From Chloroflexota bacterium (GTDB taxonomy: Bacteria; Chloroflexota; UBA6077; JACCZL01), in NCBI GenBank assembly GCA_020850535.1, contig JADZEM010000059.1:1-47405 (forward strand): a DNA stretch of 47,405 bases, in the 5' to 3' direction. The first letter of the stretch is position 1; each line of letters starts with the position of its first letter. Of this stretch, positions 1 to 9,621 are shown one piece after another. The notes below the pieces were generated by a model, which saw nothing but the letters and a program-made list of their open reading frames with translations, made no database searches and was not told where the DNA came from. The translations under genes were made by a program, and so were the position numbers.

Positions 1-538
1 CGTGCCGCCGCGTCGGGGCTTGAAAGCCCCGCCTACGATCCTGCAGTCGCTGCGCGACGCTCCAGTCGCACCAGTGCCGGCCGTTCCCGACGGCCGTCGC
101 GCAGCGACTGAATGACTGTAGGCGGGGGGTTTCAACCCCCGCCTGCGCGTCTCGTCGCGCTTCGGGAACACCAGCGAACATGCAATCGCCCTGAGTCACG
201 AACCGGAGCGATTGCATGATGGCCTCGTCGTGCCGCCGCGTCGGGGCTTGAAAGCCCCGCCTACCATCCTGCAGTCGCTGCGCGACGCTCCAGTCGCACC
301 AGTCCCTGCCGTTCCCGACGGCCGTCGCGCAGCGACTGAATGACTGTAGGCGGGGACTTCAGTCCCCGACCGCCCGTTCCATGATGCATCGGGTACACCA
401 ATGAACATGCAATCGCCCTGAGCGAGGGGGCAGGGCAATCGCATATTGGGTGTGTCGTGCCGCCTCGTCGGGGCTTGAAGCCCCCGCCTGCGCGTCTCGT
501 CGCGCTTCGGGAACACCAGCGAACATGCAATCGCCCTG
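1..538. repeat. Three adjacent copies of a palindromic MITE-like repeat (family 1)
   Basis: Copy A (1-195, left end outside the window), copy B (208-416) and a deleted copy C (431-538) share long stretches. Copy B has perfect 11-bp terminal inverted repeats, GCGATTGCATG and CATGCAATCGC. Internally each full copy is one large imperfect palindrome: an arm with GGGGCTTGAAAGCCCC plus GCCTAC and CAGTCGCTGCGCGACG faces its reverse complement about 60 bases later. Copy C lacks the middle. A fourth copy is at 22462-22679. No open reading frame of its own is credible. The structure fits a non-autonomous element; the mobilising transposase is not visible here. Confidence 0.75.
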
Positions 539-546
539 AGCAGATG

Positions 547-1128
547 TCACGCATGATTCGGGATGGGATCGCCGTTCCGACCGGCCCAGTCGGCGCGGAG
601 CAGGCCGTAGATGGCGCGGTCGGCGCGTTCGCCCCAGCGCACCACCTGCGAGCGGAGCAGCCCCTCACGCTGCATCCCCAGCTTCTCAAGCACCCGCACG
701 GAGGCTACGTTGCGCGGATCGACCCGCGCAACGACCTTCTCCAGACCCAGCGTCTCAAAGACGTAGCCCGTGACGGCGGCTGCCGCTTCGGTGGCGAGTC
801 CGTGGCCCCAGTGCTCGCGGGCGATGCCGTAGCCGAGCGTTGCGACGAGGTTCACGCGGTCGATCTCGAGTGTGAGCCGCCCGATCACCATGCCGTCGCG
901 CTCGACGGCGAACTCGGCCCGCTGCCCCCAGGGGATCGCGACGATCCGCTCCATCGCACGCCGCATGACGTCCATGTTGGCTGGCCGCCGCGCCCCGAAC
1001 ACCGCGAACTCGGGGTTGCTGGCCATCTGGAAGTACGCCTCGGCGTCGGAGACGGCTGGCGGGCGCAGCAGCAGCCGGGCCGTGCGAAGCTGGGTCGGCT
1101 GGGGCGGGCTTGCGGGCGGCGTGGCCAT
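547..1128 (-). CDS. GNAT family N-acetyltransferase (RimJ/RimL-like)
   Basis: The 193-residue product has the GNAT layout of the RimJ/RimL branch: an N-terminal strand with LRTARLLLRPP, a central segment YGIAREHWGHGLATEA that carries the acetyl-CoA-binding loop, and the late NVASVRVLEKLGMQREG motif in which Asn and the following helix bind the cofactor. Such enzymes transfer an acetyl group from acetyl-CoA to a protein N-terminus or a small amine; the substrate cannot be read from the sequence. The gene lies 52 bases downstream of the APS kinase gene on the same strand, so it may be co-transcribed, but nothing in the family ties it to sulfur metabolism. Its stop codon lies nine bases from a palindromic repeat copy. 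The ATG at 1128 has only a weak ribosome site. Confidence 0.88.
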   Translation of the reverse strand: MATPPASPPQPTQLRTARLLLRPPAVSDAEAYFQMASNPEFAVFGARRPANMDVMRRAMERIVAIPWGQRAEFAVERDGMVIGRLTLEIDRVNLVATLGYGIAREHWGHGLATEAAAAVTGYVFETLGLEKVVARVDPRNVASVRVLEKLGMQREGLLRSQVVRWGERADRAIYGLLRADWAGRNGDPIPNHA

Positions 1129-1180: not shown

Positions 1181-1729
1181 TCAGCCCGGCACGGCGCTGC
1201 GGGCGCTCACGTAGCCGATCCGTTCGAGCGTTGCCAGCACCCGCTCAACCGACGCCTCGACGGTCTCCTGGTCCGTGTCCAGCACCAGCTCGGGGTTGAG
1301 CGGCGGCTCGTACGGGTCCGAGACGCCCGTGAACTGGGTGACCTCGCCGCGCAGCGCCCGCTCGTACAGGCCCTTCACATCGCGCCGGATCAGCTCTTCG
1401 AGCGAGCAGCGCAGATGGACCTCGACGAACCGGCCGATGTCGGCGCGGACCTCGTCGCGGGTGGCGCGGTACGGCGAGATCGCCGCCACCACCGCCACCA
1501 CGTCGTTGCGCGACAGCAGCTTCGCCACGAACCCGATCCGCCGGATGTTCGTGTCGCGGTCCTCGCGGCTGAATCCCAGCCCCTTCGACAGGTTGGTGCG
1601 GACCACGTCGCCGTCGAGCACTTCGACGGTCTGTCCGCGCTCGCGCAGGGCCGCCGCGACGGCCGCTCCGAGCGTCGTCTTGCCGGCCCCCGAGAGGCCC
1701 GTAAACCAGATCGTGTATCCGCTGCTCAT
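1181..1729 (-). CDS. cysC: Adenylylsulfate (APS) kinase
   Basis: The enzyme phosphorylates adenosine 5'-phosphosulfate to PAPS with ATP. The 182-residue product has the P-loop GLSGAGKTT at residues 11-19, the [20 protein letters not shown] segment that binds APS, and the [11 protein letters not shown] helix, all typical of CysC, and its length is normal. It is the last sulfur gene of the minus-strand cluster. It is separated by about 125 bases from the preceding hypothetical gene; that gap holds four copies of ACGCAGG within about 60 bases. APS is both reduced directly by the neighbouring reductase and phosphorylated here, so PAPS may serve sulfation instead of reduction. No ATP sulfurylase gene is present, so APS must be made by a gene elsewhere. 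Confidence 0.93.
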
Positions 1730-1853
1730 CTGCGTCCTGCGTGGAAGGGTGGGCTGCCTGCGTAGATGGATCGGCTTCCTGCGTTGCAGGACCGGTATTG
1801 ATATCGTACGACCACGGGCACGCCGCTGTCGCTCTCGACCTGGGCCGCGCCGG

Positions 1854-2345
1854 TCATCCGCCGACCTCCACCCGGTCGACGGACACCCCGCTGTTCCCCA
1901 CCGAGAGCGTCAGATGGGCGCGGTCCGTGTGGATCGTGATGACGTGCCGGCCGGCTGCCGCCGTCACGGCGATCTTCTCGACGGTCTGGCCCTGGACGGC
2001 TTCGAGGGCACGGGTCACGTCGCGGGCCGCCTGGCGCAGCCCGGCTCCACGCTCGGTGCGGAAGTAGAGGTCGGTCAGGGTGCGCTCGGCGTCGGGGCCG
2101 TGCCGATTGCGGACGGCCTTCGACTGGAGCGCCAGCTCCAGCATGGTTTCCAGTGGCCGTATCAGCGGCGATGGGATCTCGCCATCGGCCACTGCCTCGG
2201 CCAGCTCGGCGTACCGCGCCTGCGAGGCCGGGTCTTTGAGGTTGCGCGCGAAGGCTGGGACGTCTTGCAGCAGGAGATCCTGCTCGGCCGGCGCCAGCGT
2301 CAGGCCCGCCCCGCGTTCGGTCTGCTGCTCACTGGCGGTGACCAA
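1854..2345 (-). CDS. Hypothetical protein inside the sulfate-assimilation operon
   Basis: I do not recognise this 163-residue product. The N-terminal part is helical ([19 protein letters not shown], then [17 protein letters not shown]); the C-terminal third alternates hydrophobic and polar residues ([17 protein letters not shown]), suggesting a beta sheet. No signal peptide or membrane segment is seen. The start is a TTG at 2345, chosen because GGAGGTGATC, a full complement to the 16S rRNA tail, sits six bases upstream, inside the last codons of cysH. The 17-base overlap with cysH implies translational coupling. Position between APS reductase and APS kinase suggests a role in sulfur assimilation, for example as an accessory or redox partner, but this is inference from context only. 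Confidence 0.8.
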
Positions 2346-3129
2346 CGATCACCTCCAGCTCGTGCTCGAAGCCGCCCGTCTCGACGGCGCAGTGCATCCC
2401 GCACTCCTTGGGCGCGCCCTTCTCCCACCACCAGCGACCGGAGCGCTGGTCCGCTCCTGGCTCCACCGGGCGGGTGCAGGGCGCACAGCCGATGGTCTTG
2501 TAGCCCTGGTCGTAGAGGGTGTTGTAGGGGACGTTGTTCTCGCGCAGATAGTCCCAGACCTCTTCCTCAGTCCAGTCTGCCAGCGGGTTGATCTTGACGA
2601 GGCCGCCGTGATCGTGGTCGATCTCGATCTTGCGGATGTTCGAGCGGGTAGCCCACTGGTCGCGGCGCAGGCCGGTGATCCAGCCGTCAAGGTCGCCGAG
2701 CACCCGCACCAGCGGGCGGACCTTCCGTACGTCGCAGCAGGTCAGCCGTAGCGGCACGGATTTCAGGAAGAGATCCTCGCCATGCTGCCCGATCATGTTG
2801 GTCAGGTCGTTCCGGTCGGGGTGGTAGGTCTCGACCTGCAGCCCATAGTGATCCTGCACCCGCTGGATCAGGTCGAGCGTCGCGAGGGGCAGCCGGCCGG
2901 TGTCCACCGTGAAGACGCGCACGTTCGGGTCGATGCGCCAGGCCATGTCGAGGATCGCCATGCCGTCGACCTGGAAGGACGTGCAGACGGCAACGCGACG
3001 CGGCGAGAAGGTGGTCAGCGCCCATTCGATGACCTCCCACGGCTCGCGGTCGTCGTACTCGACGGCCAGCTCGCCGGCCTCCCAGTCATCGAAGGTGATC
3101 CGTGCGTCCTCGATCGTCTCAACGCTCAT
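2329..3129 (-). CDS. cysH: APS reductase, thioredoxin-dependent, [4Fe-4S] type
   Basis: The enzyme reduces adenylyl sulfate to sulfite with thioredoxin as electron donor. The 266-residue product belongs to the PAPS reductase family. It has the paired cysteines CC at 131-132 and the CAPC pair at 215-218 that ligate a [4Fe-4S] cluster in APS-using members, and the C-terminal KECGMHC signature whose Cys243 is the catalytic nucleophile. PAPS-specific enzymes lack the cluster cysteines, so APS is the expected substrate. The start overlaps the sulfite reductase stop as ATGA, and its 3' end contains the ribosome site of the next gene. This arrangement places it in the middle of a tightly coupled sulfur operon. 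Confidence 0.93.
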   Translation of the reverse strand: MSVETIEDARITFDDWEAGELAVEYDDREPWEVIEWALTTFSPRRVAVCTSFQVDGMAILDMAWRIDPNVRVFTVDTGRLPLATLDLIQRVQDHYGLQVETYHPDRNDLTNMIGQHGEDLFLKSVPLRLTCCDVRKVRPLVRVLGDLDGWITGLRRDQWATRSNIRKIEIDHDHGGLVKINPLADWTEEEVWDYLRENNVPYNTLYDQGYKTIGCAPCTRPVEPGADQRSGRWWWEKGAPKECGMHCAVETGGFEHELEVIVGHRQ

Positions 3130-4847
3130 TGCGCCCTCCCTGCCCCCGCCCCTGCTACCGCTTCCTGGCCGCTCGCCAACGCGACCAGCGTCTCATCTGC
3201 CGTCCGTCGCGTGAATGCCTGGAACGATTCGCCGTCCTGCCGCTGGGCCAGCCAGCCGGCCACCAGCCGCTCAACGGTGTCCACGGCCTCGGCGGCCGGC
3301 ACGCGCCGCAGGACCGCCCGCCCGACGGTGGCGTCCTCTCCGATGCCGCCGCGCAGGTAGACCTCGTAGGCCTCCAGCTTCTGGATGCCGTCGCCGCGCG
3401 CCGTCGTGCCCTGGAGTCCGATGTCCGAGATCCAGTGGTGCGCGCAGGCGTGCGGGCAGCCGTCCACGCCCAGGCTCAGCCCGTCCACGGCGTTCCCGAA
3501 CCGCTGCTCCAGCCGTTCCACGATCTCGCGCATTTTCGGCTTGGTCTCGGCAACAGCGTAGTTGCAGAGCGGCTGCCCCGTGCAGGCGACCGCCGTGCCC
3601 CGCAGCTTGTGCACGTCCAGGTCGAACCCGATCTCGCGCAGCTTCCCGACGATCTCGTCGACGCGGCCCGTGGGCACGCCCGTCAGGATGAAGTTCTGCT
3701 GGCGGGTCAGGCGGATGTCTCCTCCGTACGATGCGGCCAGCTCGGCGATGGCGACGGCCTGCACGGCGTTGATCTGACCGGCGAAGACCGGCACGCCGAT
3801 GTAGACCTTGCCGTCCTCCTTCTGCTGGTGGACGCCGAGATGGTCGATGCGAGCACCCGGTGGCGGCGGCGTGATGAGATCTTCGAGCGTGCGCCCGAGC
3901 TTCTCCTCCACCGCCTTCCGCACGCCGTCCACGCCGTAGTCGTCCACCAGGAACTTGAGGCGGGCCTTGGCACGCGACACCCGATACTTCAGGTCGTGCC
4001 GCCAGACGTCGAGGATGGCCCGCGCCACCTCGATGGCCTGACCCTGCTCGACAAACACGCCCAGGTCACGGGCGATCCGTGGCGTGGACGAGAGGCCGCC
4101 GCCCACGTGCACCGCGAAGCCGTTGCGGGGGCCGTTCGGCCCGGGCTGGGTGGCCCCCACGAATGAGATGCAGTTGATCTCGGGCGCGTTGCACTGGTCG
4201 GTGCAGGCAGCCATCGAGATCTTGTGCTTGCGTGGCAGATCCAGGTACTCGTCGTGGTTGATGAAGTAGCTGACGAGGTCGTGCAGCTCGGAGGAGCAGT
4301 CGAACAGCTCCGTTCGGTCGAGGCCCGCGACGGGACAGCCGGTGACGTTGCGGACGGCGTCGCCGCAGCCGCCCTTGGAGGTCATCCCGACGCTCGCCAG
4401 CGCCGCGAAGACCTCGGGCAGGTCGCGGATGCGAAGCCAGTGGAGCTGGATCGTCTGGCGGGTGGTCAGCTCGGCGTAGTCCCGCCCGAACTTCTGCGAG
4501 AGCTCGCCGATGACCTTGAGCTGCGGAGCGGTCAGGTGGCCGGCTGGCACCTTGATCCGCAGCATCATCAGCCCGATTTTCGGCTTGTCGTGGTACAGGC
4601 CGTACCACTGGAAGCGGACCATGTCCTCTTCGGAGACGTCGTTGTAGTCGAGCGCACCGAGGGCTGGCGCCTCGTCGAGGATGGCGAGCGGGTGCTTCTC
4701 GGCCTTGAGCTTCTCGACGTTGTTGCGCTTCCGCACCAGGTCCCAGTCCGGCGCCGCGCGGGACGCCGCCGGGAAGGCCGGGCGCACGGCGGCGGCCGGA
4801 CGTGGCCGCGGCGTGGTCGCCTCCTCGCCGGGTGTTGGACCGCTCAT
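3126..4847 (-). CDS. sir: Ferredoxin-type sulfite (nitrite/sulfite) reductase
   Basis: This siroheme enzyme catalyses six-electron reduction, here most likely sulfite to sulfide. The 573-residue product has two ferredoxin-like half domains and the four cluster cysteines in their expected spacings: CTGQPLC (C-x5-C) near residues 420-426 and CPHAC (C-x3-C) near 464-468. The TTRQTIQLHWLRI segment provides siroheme-binding arginines. Sequence alone does not cleanly separate nitrite from sulfite reductases; the operon with APS reductase decides for sulfite. An upstream in-frame ATG at 4955 is possible, but the ATG at 4847 has a GAGGGAGA ribosome site, and the longer form would run through a transcription terminator hairpin at 4886-4920. 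The gene overlaps cysH by four bases. Confidence 0.9.
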   Translation of the reverse strand: MSGPTPGEEATTPRPRPAAAVRPAFPAASRAAPDWDLVRKRNNVEKLKAEKHPLAILDEAPALGALDYNDVSEEDMVRFQWYGLYHDKPKIGLMMLRIKVPAGHLTAPQLKVIGELSQKFGRDYAELTTRQTIQLHWLRIRDLPEVFAALASVGMTSKGGCGDAVRNVTGCPVAGLDRTELFDCSSELHDLVSYFINHDEYLDLPRKHKISMAACTDQCNAPEINCISFVGATQPGPNGPRNGFAVHVGGGLSSTPRIARDLGVFVEQGQAIEVARAILDVWRHDLKYRVSRAKARLKFLVDDYGVDGVRKAVEEKLGRTLEDLITPPPPGARIDHLGVHQQKEDGKVYIGVPVFAGQINAVQAVAIAELAASYGGDIRLTRQQNFILTGVPTGRVDEIVGKLREIGFDLDVHKLRGTAVACTGQPLCNYAVAETKPKMREIVERLEQRFGNAVDGLSLGVDGCPHACAHHWISDIGLQGTTARGDGIQKLEAYEVYLRGGIGEDATVGRAVLRRVPAAEAVDTVERLVAGWLAQRQDGESFQAFTRRTADETLVALASGQEAVAGAGAGRAQ

Positions 4848-4882
4848 GATCGCGTTCTCTCCCTCGAAACTGCCGTGAACAC

Positions 4883-4920
4883 GAGAAAAGGCCGAGCCGG
4901 CCTCTTCAAGCCGCTCGGCC
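4883..4920 (-). terminator. Hairpin with T-run between the DUF2292 gene and sir (possible attenuator)
   Basis: On the minus strand the arms GGCCGAGCGG and CCGGCTCGGCC, with one bulged base, close a ten-base loop and are followed by CTTTTCTC. The hairpin lies about 40 bases before the sulfite reductase start and 80 bases after the stop of the small DUF2292 gene. It is therefore either a partial terminator within the operon or a regulated attenuator. I found no S-box or other known riboswitch core in the bases before it. Confidence 0.6.
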
Positions 4921-5001
4921 TCCAGTGGACTGGTCAGCCGGGAGTGCCCGCGCACGCACGAGCACGCATCTTCAGTTGGTGCGCTCCGCGAGCGTCAGCC
5001 G

Positions 5002-5575: not shown

Positions 5576-5638
5576 GCGCCGGCGACATCGCGATGCGCTG
5601 GTACACTCAGAGGCAGGACACCCGAGGAGGTGACGCTG

Positions 5639-5893
5639 ATGTGCCGCATCGACATCAGCGAGCTACCGCAGCAGACGGACGAAGAGATCGGCACTGGCGA
5701 GACCTACGCCGTCGAACGAGATGGCAAGGTCGTGGCCTACGTCGTTCCGGTGAAGCCCCGCGACGAGAGCGAAGTACGGGCCGTGACAGAACGGGTTGCA
5801 CACGCTGTCGATGCCAGTCTGAGCGAAGGGTACACTTCAGAGGATCTGGCCCGGGATCTCGACATCAGCCGTCCATTCAACGCATCCAGATAG
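5639..5893 (+). CDS. Antitoxin of a PIN-domain toxin-antitoxin pair
   Basis: The 84-residue protein combines an N-terminal segment with GTGETYAVERDGKVVAYVVP, resembling the Phd/YefM type DNA-binding antitoxin fold, and a C-terminal acidic helical tail (EGYTSEDLARDLDIS) that probably wraps the toxin. It lies one base before a PIN-domain gene, the usual order of VapBC operons. The ATG at 5639 has GAGGAGG at eight bases; a GTG at 5630 overlaps that ribosome site and is less likely. A near-identical sequence, GGTACACTCAGAGG, occurs both upstream (5600-5613) and inside the gene (about 5829-5842). Such antitoxins usually repress their own operon. Confidence 0.75.
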   Translation: MCRIDISELPQQTDEEIGTGETYAVERDGKVVAYVVPVKPRDESEVRAVTERVAHAVDASLSEGYTSEDLARDLDISRPFNASR

Positions 5894-5894
5894 C

Positions 5895-6323
5895 ATGCGC
5901 CTCGCTGTCGATGCGAGCGTGCTCGTCGCCGAGCTTACACGCCGGCGTGGACGAAGCCTGATTTCGCTCTCTGCTCTGGAGTTTGTTGTTGCTGCTCACG
6001 CCTGGGACGAGGTGACCTACGAACTACCGCGCCGACTGGCGGCCCGCGAGCGACACGGCCGCCTGGTTTCCGGCGGTGCAGATCTGGTGCTGCGCAAGTG
6101 TCTCTCCCTGGCGGCGGCATACGTCACCGTCGTGCCGAGCGTCGCGTACGAGTCGTTCGAGGCGCTGGCGCGGCGGCGAGTGCCGAGGGATCCGCGCGAT
6201 TGGCCGACCGTTGCGTTGGCCATGGCGCTCGAGGCCGGCATCTGGACCGCCGACGCCGACTGTCTCGGCTGTGGCCTGCCAACCTGGACGACCGAGGCGC
6301 TGCTGCTGGCGTCCGAGGCGTGA
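5895..6323 (+). CDS. PIN-domain ribonuclease toxin (VapC-like)
   Basis: The 142-residue product starts with LAVDASVLVAEL, carrying the first PIN-domain aspartate, and ends with DWPTVALAMALEAGIWTADAD followed by GCGLPTWTT, which supplies the late acidic residues and the C-terminal strand. PIN toxins are Mg-dependent RNases that cleave tRNA, rRNA or mRNA when released from their antitoxin. The long gap between the first and later acidic residues is normal for the fold. The start codon follows the antitoxin stop by one base, so translation is probably coupled. The RNA target cannot be inferred from sequence. Confidence 0.82.
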   Translation: MRLAVDASVLVAELTRRRGRSLISLSALEFVVAAHAWDEVTYELPRRLAARERHGRLVSGGADLVLRKCLSLAAAYVTVVPSVAYESFEALARRRVPRDPRDWPTVALAMALEAGIWTADADCLGCGLPTWTTEALLLASEA

Positions 6324-6363: not shown

Positions 6364-6379
6364 TTCATGAACTTGTCAT
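6364..6379 (+). promoter_or_regulatory. Pho-box-like 11-bp direct repeat upstream of the response regulator
   Basis: TTCAT (6364-6368) and GTCAT (6375-6379) are spaced by exactly 11 bases, one DNA turn, as in operators of OmpR/PhoB-type regulators. The same TTCAT-N5-TGTCAT-NTTC pattern occurs at 8685-8704 before the Asp/Asn-repeat gene. A weak promoter with CATAAT at 6440-6445 lies downstream, before the regulator start. Autoregulation is inferred. Confidence 0.5.
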
Positions 6380-6468
6380 ATTCCATCCGTCTGCACCCTC
6401 ATGAAGATCGCCGCCTGTCGATGGTTTCGCCTCACTCGTCATAATCGTGCTCCGTATCGGGTGACCGT

Positions 6469-7182
6469 ATGAGCGTCCAGCCGAGTGCACGCTCGGGCTC
6501 CGCGCGCGCCCGCGTGCTTGTCGTGGACGACGATCCGAAGGTCGTGAGCCTGATGCGCCGTGGGCTGACCTTTGAGGGTTACGACGTGAGTGTGGCCTCG
6601 GATGGCGATGAGGCGCTCGCCGTGGCGCACGACTCGCCGCCGCACCTGGTGGTGCTCGACGTGATGATGCCGCGCCTGAGCGGGATCGAGGTCTGCCGCC
6701 GCCTCCGTGCGATTGACCGCGACCTTGCCATCCTGATGCTGACGGGGCGCGCCAGTGTGTCGGCGCGCATCGAGGGGCTGGACGCCGGTGCGGATGACTA
6801 TCTCGTCAAGCCGTTCGCGTTCGACGAGCTGCTGGCCCGCATCCGAGCGCTCTTGCGCCGGACCCTCCCGCCGGAGGATGAAGTCCTCGAGTTCGAGGAC
6901 TTGCGGCTCGTCCCGTCCACCCGTGACGTGACCCGCGCAGGGCAGGCCGTCGAGTTGACGGCGCGCGAGTACGATCTCCTGGAGCTATTTCTGCGGCACC
7001 CTCGCCAGGTGCTTCAGCGCGACGTCATCTTCGCCCGGGTGTGGGGGTCCGACTTCCTTGGTGAATCGAACGTCATCGACGTCCACGTGATGCGGTTGCG
7101 GGACAAGCTCGAATCCGGTGGTGGCGAGCGCCTGATCCACACGATTCGCGGCGCGGGCTACAGCCTCCGGCGGCGGAGCTAG
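6469..7182 (+). CDS. OmpR/PhoB-family response regulator
   Basis: The 237-residue protein has a receiver domain with the acidic pocket VVDDD near residue 20, phospho-acceptor Asp64 in VLDVMMPRLSG and Lys114 in YLVKPF. It is followed by a winged-helix DNA-binding domain (about 137-235) with ELTAREYDLLELFLRHP and NVIDVHVMRLRDKL. It would be phosphorylated by the kinase encoded three bases downstream. The direct repeat upstream of its gene, repeated before the Asp/Asn-rich protein gene, suggests that it controls both. The signal is unknown. Confidence 0.95.
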   Translation: MSVQPSARSGSARARVLVVDDDPKVVSLMRRGLTFEGYDVSVASDGDEALAVAHDSPPHLVVLDVMMPRLSGIEVCRRLRAIDRDLAILMLTGRASVSARIEGLDAGADDYLVKPFAFDELLARIRALLRRTLPPEDEVLEFEDLRLVPSTRDVTRAGQAVELTAREYDLLELFLRHPRQVLQRDVIFARVWGSDFLGESNVIDVHVMRLRDKLESGGGERLIHTIRGAGYSLRRRS

Positions 7183-7185
7183 ACG

Positions 7186-8670
7186 GTGCCGTCGCTGATG
7201 CGCCTGCCGATCCGCCTGCGGATGGCGCTCTGGTTCGCTGCGCTGCTCTGGCTGCTGGTGGGCGCGATGAGCGTCTTCCTGCTCTCGGCGTTGGACGACG
7301 TCGTTCAGGAGCAGATCGATGCCGCCCTGCGATTGCGCGCCTCACGGGTCGAGCGGGAGATCACGACGGGCGACGATGACCGGCTCGACCCGCAGGACGT
7401 GCAGGCGAGTCTGCTCGACCTCGCCCCGTTCGAGGAGCTGTCTGCGCCGGGCATCTACGTGCAGGTGCGGGACATCCGTGGGGCCGTCATCGCGGCGTCC
7501 GCCAACCTGCCGCGCGACGAGCTGCCGGTGACGCAGGAACTGCTCGCGAGCGCGCTCCAGGACCGCGAGGCCTTCGAGACGGTCTCGGTCGGCAACGAAC
7601 AGGTACGCATCCTGGCGTGGCCGGTCGATACATCGGGGCCGGTCGTGGGTGTGGTGGTCGTTGGCCAGTCGTTGCGGCTGGTCGAGGTCACACGGCAGGG
7701 CGTCGAGCGGCTGGTGACCATCGCGGCGATTGTGGCGACGGTGGCTGCAGGCCTCGGCGGTTGGTGGTTGACCTCGCGGGCGCTGGGTCCGATGGCCGAC
7801 GTGACCCGCGTTGCCCGTGACATCGCGGCGACAGGGCGGTTCGAGCAGCGCATCGCGCGGCCGGCCGGCGACGACGAGGTTGGACAACTGGTTCAGACGT
7901 TCAACGAGATGCTGGCGCGGTTGGAGCGGATCTTCGCACTCCAGCGCGAGTTCCTGGCCGATGCCTCACACGAGCTGCGCGGCCCGCTGATGGTGATTCG
8001 CGGCAACCTCGACCTGCTTCGCCTTGGCATCCCCGAAGACGAGCGGCGCGACTGCGTCCGTGAGGCCGGTGAGGAGGTGGAGCGGCTCTCGCGGCTCGCC
8101 TCGGACCTCCTGTTCCTGGCGGCGACCGACGCTGCCGAGGTCGTCGAGCAACTGCCTGTTCGCCTCGATCAGGTGGTGGTTGGCGCCTGGGAGCGCGCCC
8201 GCCTGACCGACCACGGGCGGCACGAGATCGTGCTGGGCGAGAACCAGCCGAGCGAGGTCATCGGAGATCGGACCCGGCTCGATCAACTCGCCTGGAACCT
8301 GGTCGAGAACGCGCTGCGCTACACCCAGGCCGGTGGGCGGGTCGAGCTGTCGCTGACCCGGGCTGGAAATCAGGCGACGTTCGTTGTGCGCGACACCGGA
8401 TTGGGCATCGCCGCCGAGCATCTGCCGCGCATCTTCGAGCGCTTCTACCGCGTTGACAAGGCGCGCTCGCGGGGGAATGGCGGCACCGGGCTCGGACTGG
8501 CCATCGTCAAGCGCGTCGCGGAATCTCATCAAGGGCACGTCAGCGTCACCAGCGAGCCTGGGCGCGGGACGACATTCACCGTCACGCTCTACGTGCGCGC
8601 CGTTGCCGCCCAGCACGACGGGCCATCCGAGATTCGGCAGGCGTCCGCGGAACGGCAGGTGCGCGCCTGA
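7186..8670 (+). CDS. Membrane sensor histidine kinase
   Basis: The 494-residue protein has a first membrane helix at about 13-35, an extracytoplasmic sensor of roughly 140 residues, a second helix at about 176-198 and a HAMP linker. The HisKA dimerisation helix follows with phospho-acceptor His262 in FLADASHELRGPL. The ATPase domain has N-box LAWNLVENALRYT, G1 DTGLGIAAEHL and G2 GGTGLGLAIVKRV. The layout matches kinases paired with OmpR-type regulators. The start is GTG at 7186, three bases after the regulator stop; an in-frame ATG at 7198 is also possible. I recognise no motif in the sensor domain that would name its ligand. Confidence 0.94.
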   Translation: MPSLMRLPIRLRMALWFAALLWLLVGAMSVFLLSALDDVVQEQIDAALRLRASRVEREITTGDDDRLDPQDVQASLLDLAPFEELSAPGIYVQVRDIRGAVIAASANLPRDELPVTQELLASALQDREAFETVSVGNEQVRILAWPVDTSGPVVGVVVVGQSLRLVEVTRQGVERLVTIAAIVATVAAGLGGWWLTSRALGPMADVTRVARDIAATGRFEQRIARPAGDDEVGQLVQTFNEMLARLERIFALQREFLADASHELRGPLMVIRGNLDLLRLGIPEDERRDCVREAGEEVERLSRLASDLLFLAATDAAEVVEQLPVRLDQVVVGAWERARLTDHGRHEIVLGENQPSEVIGDRTRLDQLAWNLVENALRYTQAGGRVELSLTRAGNQATFVVRDTGLGIAAEHLPRIFERFYRVDKARSRGNGGTGLGLAIVKRVAESHQGHVSVTSEPGRGTTFTVTLYVRAVAAQHDGPSEIRQASAERQVRA

Positions 8671-8684
8671 TCTCCGTCCTCACA

Positions 8685-8704
8685 TTCATAGTTCTGTCAT
8701 CTTC
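8685..8704 (+). promoter_or_regulatory. Second copy of the 11-bp direct repeat, upstream of the Asp/Asn-repeat gene
   Basis: TTCAT (8685-8689) and GTCAT (8696-8700) are again 11 bases apart and followed by CTTCAA, matching the element at 6364-6386 in spacing and most bases. A further GTCAT lies at 8709-8713. The element sits about 70 bases before the GTG start of the repeat protein, a suitable position for an activator site. Confidence 0.5.
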
Positions 8705-8770
8705 AACGGTCATGCTGACCGCTCTCAGATTGTCGTCCTGGCCGCTCGGCGCCGCTGAAGGGAACCTCCC

Positions 8771-9316
8771 GTGACACGTCTCGACCTGATCCGCGCGTTC
8801 GTTGCCATGCTGATCGTCAGCACGGCCGTCCTGGTGCAGTTCATTCACGGGAGCAGCAGCCGCCCGGCAACTTCGTCTCAGCTCGACGCACAGGCAATCC
8901 TGCACCGCTTCGTACCCGAGCCGAGCCGCGTCGCACTGGCTGACAACGGCAGCGACAATGGCGACGAAGACGCCGACAACAGCGGTGCTGACAACAGCGG
9001 CGCCGACAACAGCGGTGCTGACAACGAGGATGCCGACAACAGCGGCGCCGACAACGAGGATGCCGACAACAGCGGTGCTGACAACGAGGACGCCGACAAC
9101 GAGGACGCCGACAACAGTGGGGCCGACAACGAGGACGCCGACAACGGCGGCGCTGACAACAGTGGGGCCGATAACGAGGATGCCGACAACAGCGGCTCCG
9201 ATAACGAAGACGCTGACAACAGCGGTGCCGATAACGAGGACGCCGACAACAGTGGGGCCGATAACGAAGACGCCGACAACAGTGGGGCCGATAACGAGGA
9301 CGCCGACAACAATTAG
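8771..9316 (+). CDS. Exported or membrane-anchored Asp/Asn-rich pentapeptide-repeat protein
   Basis: I do not recognise this 181-residue protein. Residues about 7-27 form a hydrophobic helix (LIRAFVAMLIVSTAVLVQFI) that could be a signal anchor; a linker of some 40 residues follows. The rest, from about residue 69, is 22 consecutive five-residue units of the form DN-SG-A or DN-ED-A, ending DNN. The tail has no Cys, no aromatic and no basic residue and is strongly negatively charged, so it may be disordered outside the membrane and able to bind cations. The GTG start has GAAGGGAA upstream. The gene directly follows the kinase and shares an operator-like motif with the regulator gene, which suggests it is a target of the two-component system. 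Antisense frames are open only because of the repeat. Confidence 0.72.
   Translation: MTRLDLIRAFVAMLIVSTAVLVQFIHGSSSRPATSSQLDAQAILHRFVPEPSRVALADNGSDNGDEDADNSGADNSGADNSGADNEDADNSGADNEDADNSGADNEDADNEDADNSGADNEDADNGGADNSGADNEDADNSGSDNEDADNSGADNEDADNSGADNEDADNSGADNEDADNN
8975..9310 (+). repeat. 15-bp in-frame tandem repeat
   Basis: About 22 units of 15 bases follow the pattern GACAACnnnGNNGCN and encode DN-xx-A. Two unit types, encoding SG-A and ED-A, alternate over much of the array, giving a 30-base higher-order period. Copy number can probably change by slippage or recombination without breaking the frame. Confidence 0.9.
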
Positions 9317-9347
9317 TGGCTCGGCAGGCGTGCATCGCAGGGTTGCT

Positions 9348-9505
9348 CGGTGCCCATCGTCAACCTGACAGCAGCGAGAAACGACCTCCCGTCCGTCATC
9401 CCGACCGCGGCGAGGAACGAGCGGAGTGGGGATCTTCTCCTTCTGTAGCGTGAGGAAGATCCCTCGACTTCGTTCGCACGCTCACGTCGCTCGGGATGAC
9501 GGGGG
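9348..9505. repeat. Palindromic intergenic repeat (family 2)
   Basis: The segment begins CGGTGCCCATCGTCA and contains two facing arms, CGTCATCCCGACCG and CTCGGGATGACGGG, with GGGATCTTC and GAAGATCCC inside. A related copy lies at 31283-31485 with the same order of motifs. There is no coding potential. Bases 9317-9801 otherwise hold only a strong hairpin at 9622-9659. Confidence 0.65.
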
Positions 9506-9621
9506 AAGCGTCGAGTGACCCGACCCGGTCGTTCACGACGGACAGGCCACGAGAATCAGTTGAGACTCTGCTGATCCCGTCCGGCCCCGCCTGACGCCCC
9601 GTGTGCCAGAATGGAAGCCCG

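Follow-up and report, generated by a model that had tools for sequence, protein, structure and literature searches.

A conserved 11-bp direct repeat as a candidate operator of a Chloroflexota two-component operon, with an acidic Asp/Asn-repeat gene in an exchangeable output position

The direct repeat TTCAT-N5-TGTCAT-NTTC, which precedes both a regulator-kinase operon and the Asp/Asn-repeat gene next to it in a Chloroflexota genome, is best read, from comparison of related loci, as the candidate operator of this regulator group. In this reading the operator is ancestral, whereas the envelope or stress gene that it serves as output is easily replaced. What is unusual in this genome is that the output consists of a putative anchor plus an acidic repeat and nothing else. 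All features lie in a stretch of 47,405 nucleotides (contig JADZEM010000059.1), analysed as a whole and referred to here as the window (Table 1).

Table 1. Features of the two-component locus in the window
Feature	Position	Strand	Remarks
Operator-like direct repeat TTCAT-N6-GTCAT, 11-bp period	6364..6383	+	Exact match; ~85 bp before regulator start, upstream of regulator-kinase operon
OmpR/PhoB-family response regulator, receiver and winged-helix DNA-binding domain	6469..7182	+	PF00072 1e-31, PF00486 1.3e-25
Membrane sensor histidine kinase, 2CSK_N-type extracytoplasmic sensor, HAMP, HisKA, HATPase	7186..8670	+	Pfam
Operator-like direct repeat TTCAT-N6-GTCAT	8685..8704	+	Exact match; 14 bp after kinase stop, 66 bp before acidic start codon
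Acidic Asp/Asn-repeat protein, 181 aa, GTG start	8771..9316	+	Hydrophobic N-terminal segment ~residues 4-25; net charge ~-46
Tandem repeat array coding ADNSG/ADNED units	8964..9311	+	30-bp period, ~11.6 copies

An earlier sequence-only reading had placed one copy of the motif upstream of the regulator gene and another upstream of the Asp/Asn-repeat gene, and both copies (TTCATGAACTTGTCATATTC and TTCATAGTTCTGTCATCTTC, 20 bases each) indeed match TTCATN5TGTCATNTTC exactly at those positions. Allowing up to two mismatches to this strict form added a single match in the window, inside the regulator gene (7013), compared with 0.05 matches expected from shuffled windows, none of which reached three. 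Across the 7.65-Mb genome, the two sites of the window are the only matches to the strict form, and the looser form TTCATN6[T/G]TCAT is found seven times, versus three times for a reversed control. The strict pattern was formulated after both sites had been seen, and the bare repeat TCATN7TCAT is not rare, occurring twice in the window against 0.47 expected (two were reached in 8 of 100 shuffles); the window by itself is therefore only suggestive and no proof of a functional pair. A scan for sigma-70-like promoters near either site found none. We accept the motif as functional because it is conserved in relatives.

Orthologs were located through the best matches of the regulator in 60 relatives and by searching 400 genomes from the phylum with the kinase. 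Orthologous regulator-kinase pairs were found in four genomes (G021, G014, G027 and G028), with 63-70% identity to the regulator and 52-54% identity to the kinase of the window; a kinase search of a named genome collection returned only distant relatives from many phyla. All four orthologous operons are adjoined by an 11-bp direct repeat, TTCAT-N6-[T/G]TCAT, and the boxes at the orthologous loci consist of two to four half-sites arrayed in tandem in 11-bp register. The five orthologous regulators, including that of the window, share one recognition-helix sequence, SN-x-IDVHVMRLR. The earlier view of the motif as a one-turn direct repeat for an OmpR-type regulator is thus supported, in that a box adjoins all five orthologous operons, the recognition helix is common to them and the motif behaves as a candidate operator.

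The genes next to the box differ among these loci. In G021 the box stands upstream of an htpX-regulator-kinase unit, and in the other three genomes it follows the kinase gene, preceding htpX and a TerC-like gene in G027 (with one mismatch), a DoxX gene in G028, and Usp and Na/Ca exchanger genes in G014; neighbours were named from Pfam, apart from the TerC-like label, which comes from reading the sequence only. The trio of sensor, regulator and acidic gene is not conserved. Of the closed module with one dedicated target, the conserved box has held up and the dedication has not, since the gene behind the box is swapped among species and the acidic gene was found in none of 60 relatives. The sequence-only reading had also named absence of the motif from one of its two positions in homologous loci as evidence against the module. 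Such absence applies to the putatively autoregulatory box upstream of the operon, which among the four orthologs only G021 has and which the other three lack even with up to two mismatches allowed, but not to the site that follows the kinase gene, which is kept in four of the five orthologous loci.

The motif was compared with permuted alternatives in a control of 220 patterns (20 permuted half-sites at 11 spacings), which bears on the motif and not on the acidic gene as a functional target. In each of three locus sets, the top rank among the 220 went to TTCAT/TTCAT with a 6-base spacer. Within a strict 350-bp span at the five orthologous loci it was found at three, and every other pattern at no more than one; G021 was missed because its box precedes htpX, further upstream, and G014 because the alignment end extends beyond the kinase stop. 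Among 35 other regulator-kinase loci the pattern was found at five (next-best pattern, 3/35), and upstream of PepSY genes it was found at 4 of 12 loci, with all 219 others at no more than 1/12.

The box is not confined to the orthologs; it also adjoins regulator-kinase loci in G008 C66, G008 C45, G001 C126, G017, G042, G038 and G337. In G001 C126 it directly precedes another regulator gene, and in G008 C45 it lies after the kinase gene and before the gene for an exported PepSY protein (PF03413) with an Asp/Asn-rich tail (SNDNASNNDENGGGDNNEQNSNESDTGAD). Searching with this protein revealed PepSY genes in 13 of 400 genomes, several of them adjoining a kinase gene, and some of these PepSY proteins carry acidic repeats of a different kind (ETPDAQEGP). 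The PepSY-linked regulators are approximately 46-51% identical, more distant than the five orthologs, so the slot in common is a positional parallel and not proven descent. In the genome of the window, the htpX homologue and a paralogous regulator gene point away from each other, with six degenerate 11-bp YTYAY units between them.

Both domains of the window regulator, the receiver and the Trans_reg_C winged helix, score above the Pfam gathering score. Its best PDB sequence matches are Mycobacterium tuberculosis PrrA and PhoP, which have the same architecture. PhoP has the 11-bp direct-repeat geometry seen in the window motif, and PrrA and PhoP have half-sites and regulons other than those here. 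When best hits in NCBIfam were considered, neither the regulator nor the kinase reached any equivalog cut-off: the regulator scored 223.6 bits for PhoB (its best score; cut-off 296.2) and 213.2 for TIGR01387 (279.2), and the kinase scored 230.2 bits for the heavy-metal sensor TIGR01386 (its best hit; 292.55) and 222.7 for PhoR (334.2). On these scores the pair does not qualify as a heavy-metal CopR/CusR regulator with a CopS/CusS sensor, or as PhoB-PhoR.

The acidic protein begins with a hydrophobic stretch (Kyte-Doolittle values up to 2.19 over 19 residues), followed by a linker and then by the ADNSG/ADNED units. Because long open reading frames cross the repeat in other frames too, coding was examined by comparing repeat units within their class; 170 of 179 differences fall at third codon positions of the acidic frame, demonstrating that the acidic frame encodes a genuine protein selected for its amino acids. 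Its hydrophobic N-terminus makes an N-terminally anchored or exported product plausible, in agreement with the earlier placement of the repeat protein outside the membrane, and the protein fills the slot that is occupied elsewhere by exported proteins. Neither Pfam nor NCBIfam contained a match to it, and it thus has no PepSY domain. No relative of the gene was found in 60 related genomes, and the ADN repeat was found in none of 28 class relatives, so a single genome provides the link between the acidic protein and this regulator. Asp/Asn-repeat proteins or tails also occur elsewhere in the phylum, and acidic repeats were seen in G002 (same family), G331 (in a DUF5666 protein) and G371. In the flanks that were retrieved, neither a regulator nor a kinase relative appeared; we therefore regard them as a common protein style and not as shown relatives. 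Directly behind the acidic gene lies a many-copy palindromic repeat.

The statement that no described system has this output was too strong, given that DbfQRS-type loci (PMC12714742) and UipA (PMC8963506) had already been described. In DbfQRS of Vibrio cholerae, a small exported PepSY protein is encoded beside the regulator-kinase pair and positive autoregulation has been suggested; PepSY-protein/two-component neighbourhoods have been reported in several phyla (PMC12714742). The locus studied here resembles DbfQRS in that a third gene, here one whose product may be exported, adjoins a kinase-regulator pair, and in that PepSY genes in relatives are preceded by the same box. It differs in that the window protein has only a hydrophobic N-terminus and acidic repeats, whereas the third protein of G008 C45 has the PepSY domain. 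Since the window protein fails the PepSY test, we do not file it as a member of the PepSY/two-component module; it may work like one. UipA is a PepSY protein that crosses the membrane once and presents a negatively charged face that binds metal (PMC8963506), and a single pass with a negatively charged extracytoplasmic part is also predicted for the window protein. However, UipA has folded PepSY domains where the window protein has acidic repeats, and the likeness drawn here concerns the single pass and the charge, not the sequence.

Two further kinds of system were compared. Synechocystis CopRS (PMC4182526) and Pseudomonas CusRS (PMC11195947) are metal-type two-component systems whose regulators likewise use TTCAT half-sites, but with a different spacing and arrangement; the window proteins score below the cut-offs of these families, and the sensor has no visible metal ligands. 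In the secretion-stress systems CutRS/CssRS, studied in Streptomyces, the regulator controls envelope quality-control proteases, including HtrA (PMC12802291). A comparable protease link, of the CpxRA/CutRS envelope-stress type, may exist here, as the box precedes htpX in G021 and G027, although in the genome of the window htpX adjoins the paralogous regulator instead. The CutS sensor relies on conserved cysteines that are absent from the sensor of the window, and the CutR motif was rejected as a match for the box as its consensus, TAWATAAA, differs (PMC12802291). For the exact motif, no described system with a spacing of 6 was found in the literature.

On the basis of these comparisons we propose a mechanism in which the OmpR-family regulator encoded in the operon would itself bind both motifs. 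The kinase would be activated by a signal outside the membrane, an envelope condition, upon which the phosphorylated regulator would occupy the 11-bp direct repeats in the form of a tandem dimer. Binding upstream of the operon would raise the operon's own expression, and binding at the site behind the kinase gene would turn on the acidic protein. The latter would be anchored through its N-terminal hydrophobic segment, exposing approximately 125 putatively disordered Asp/Asn-rich residues outside the membrane. Judging from its composition, the chain would most likely bind cations, either metal ions or cationic peptides, and so serve as a polyanionic screen or buffer; such binding may lower the stress sensed by the kinase. 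The genes found in the output slot of relatives encode the HtpX protease, DoxX, Usp together with a Na/Ca exchanger, or PepSY proteins. We consider this mechanism as a whole, in which the regulator acts on both putative sites and drives its own operon together with an anchored cation-binding acidic protein, to be somewhat favoured. A bolder version, in which the repeat chain is itself a feedback element, a polyanionic decoy replacing a folded PepSY-type partner, with the repeat number setting the amount of cation (metal or antimicrobial peptide) that triggers the kinase, seems to us improbable.

Other explanations were weighed against this mechanism. That the motif pair is a coincidence draws on the frequency of TCATN7TCAT in the window, where two copies were reached by 8 of 100 shuffles as noted above, but this explanation is in large part refuted by conservation, with a box adjoining all orthologous operons and the first rank among 220 controls in three sets, and we give it very little credence. 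The box could instead be a true operator and the acidic gene a chance newcomer, a repeat-tailed frame that landed or expanded downstream, owes its expression to read-through or captured regulation and plays no part in signalling. Consistent with this, the acidic gene is absent from all relatives searched, tandem repeats readily expand, the gene adjoining the box varies among orthologs, no terminator was found between the kinase gene and the acidic gene, and a many-copy palindromic repeat lies right behind the latter. Against it stand the 170:9 third-codon-position bias, which indicates selection on the protein, the location of the box 66 bp ahead of the acidic start codon, a position followed by other genes in relatives, and the parallel Asp/Asn-rich tail on the box-linked PepSY protein of G008 C45. 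We regard a newcomer as unlikely.

The two remaining explanations assign the locus to a familiar type of system. In a heavy-metal (copper-type) system, a CopR/CusR-like regulator would act on the TTCAT boxes and the acidic protein would be an extracytoplasmic metal chelator. The known sites invite this reading, with TTCATN4-5TTCAT for Synechocystis CopR (PMC4182526) and ATTCATnnATGTAAT for Pseudomonas CusR (PMC11195947), as do the best kinase hit, to TIGR01386, and the 213 bits of the regulator for TIGR01387. Yet both scores are under the curated cut-offs (230.2 vs 292.55 and 213.2 vs 279.2), the spacing here is 6 compared with 4-5, and no metal exporter was present among the neighbours examined. 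In addition, the sensor region of the window kinase is devoid of Cys, His and Met in the sensor alignment, which speaks against a classical copper sensor despite the CopR/CusR-like box, and a copper-type system is accordingly doubtful in our estimation. A phosphate system of the PhoB-PhoR type, hinted at when the sequence-only reading called the motif Pho-box-like, is far less probable still. Pho boxes are 11-bp direct repeats containing TGTCAT, and PhoB gives the best NCBIfam score of the regulator; however, the PhoB and PhoR scores both fall short of their cut-offs, no phosphate genes were present among the neighbours examined, and envelope and stress genes make up most of the partners of the box in relatives.

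With the candidate operator, an uncharacterised regulator group found in several lineages gains a concrete element that predicts its targets. The locus illustrates how a unit of sensor, regulator and candidate operator persists while its output gene is exchanged among species, in this case for a chain made up almost entirely of Asp/Asn repeats. Were this chain to tune the signal, changes in repeat number would give evolution a simple dial for the sensing threshold. Five matches to the looser box lie elsewhere in the genome. One of these is located between a VanW/peptidoglycan-binding gene and the gene for a divergent, apparently exported protein, and could mark an additional target; the others are near membrane proteins or within coding sequence.

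In G021, a relative with the orthologous regulator-kinase pair, an ORF overlapping the kinase stop codon (TGATG) translates as MPPTDALDDAPDDAPDDAPDDALDDALDDALDGTWRR, representing another case of an acidic Asp repeat immediately 3′ of this kinase. A signal peptide was absent from the ORF product. Two Asp/Asn-repeat genes were observed in the same-family genome G002 (L209 on contig C28 and L210 on contig C52), both located at contig ends and with near-identical 3′ flanks; the assembly was probably interrupted there by a repeat present in duplicate.

The box, an 11-bp direct repeat (TTCAT-N6-[T/G]TCAT) and candidate operator of the regulator, also occurs on contig C96 of the window's own genome, G000. 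On contig C174 of this genome, six degenerate 11-bp units are followed by short repeats of the GCACCCGCCCAGGTC type. The divergent gene beside the C96 box encodes an apparently exported product, and this box possibly marks a further envelope target of the regulator.

Features in the window, in G000 and in G021
Feature	Location	Description
Clustered imperfect direct and inverted repeats	window 100-627	138-nt and 28-nt copies; inverted arms 48-nt
APS kinase, PAPS reductase, nitrite/sulfite reductase (sulfate assimilation)	window 1181-4955	minus strand
Small gene, then immediately PIN-domain gene (PF10130)	window 5630-6323	just upstream of regulator-kinase operon
Imperfect palindromic element	window 9393-9502	22-nt arms, CCGTCATCCCGA...TCGGGATGACGG; just 3′ of acidic gene
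Six successive degenerate 11-bp units (YTYAY-N6)	L036 ~9258-9552 = G000:C174:39257-39552	between paralogous regulator and htpX
Further box	L158, G000:C96:4002-4017	between VanW/peptidoglycan-binding gene and divergent gene
12-bp tandem array	L031:10689-10794 (G021)	begins at 3′ end of orthologous kinase gene

The gene pair upstream of the operon looks like a VapBC-type toxin-antitoxin system. The palindromic element behind the acidic gene has 77 matches in the genome, approximately 40 of them long (82-97% identity), and judged by these many copies it is a dispersed, MITE-like repeat. A translated stretch resembling the repeat cluster at the start of the window was also found near G000:C218, suggesting that this cluster is a dispersed element.
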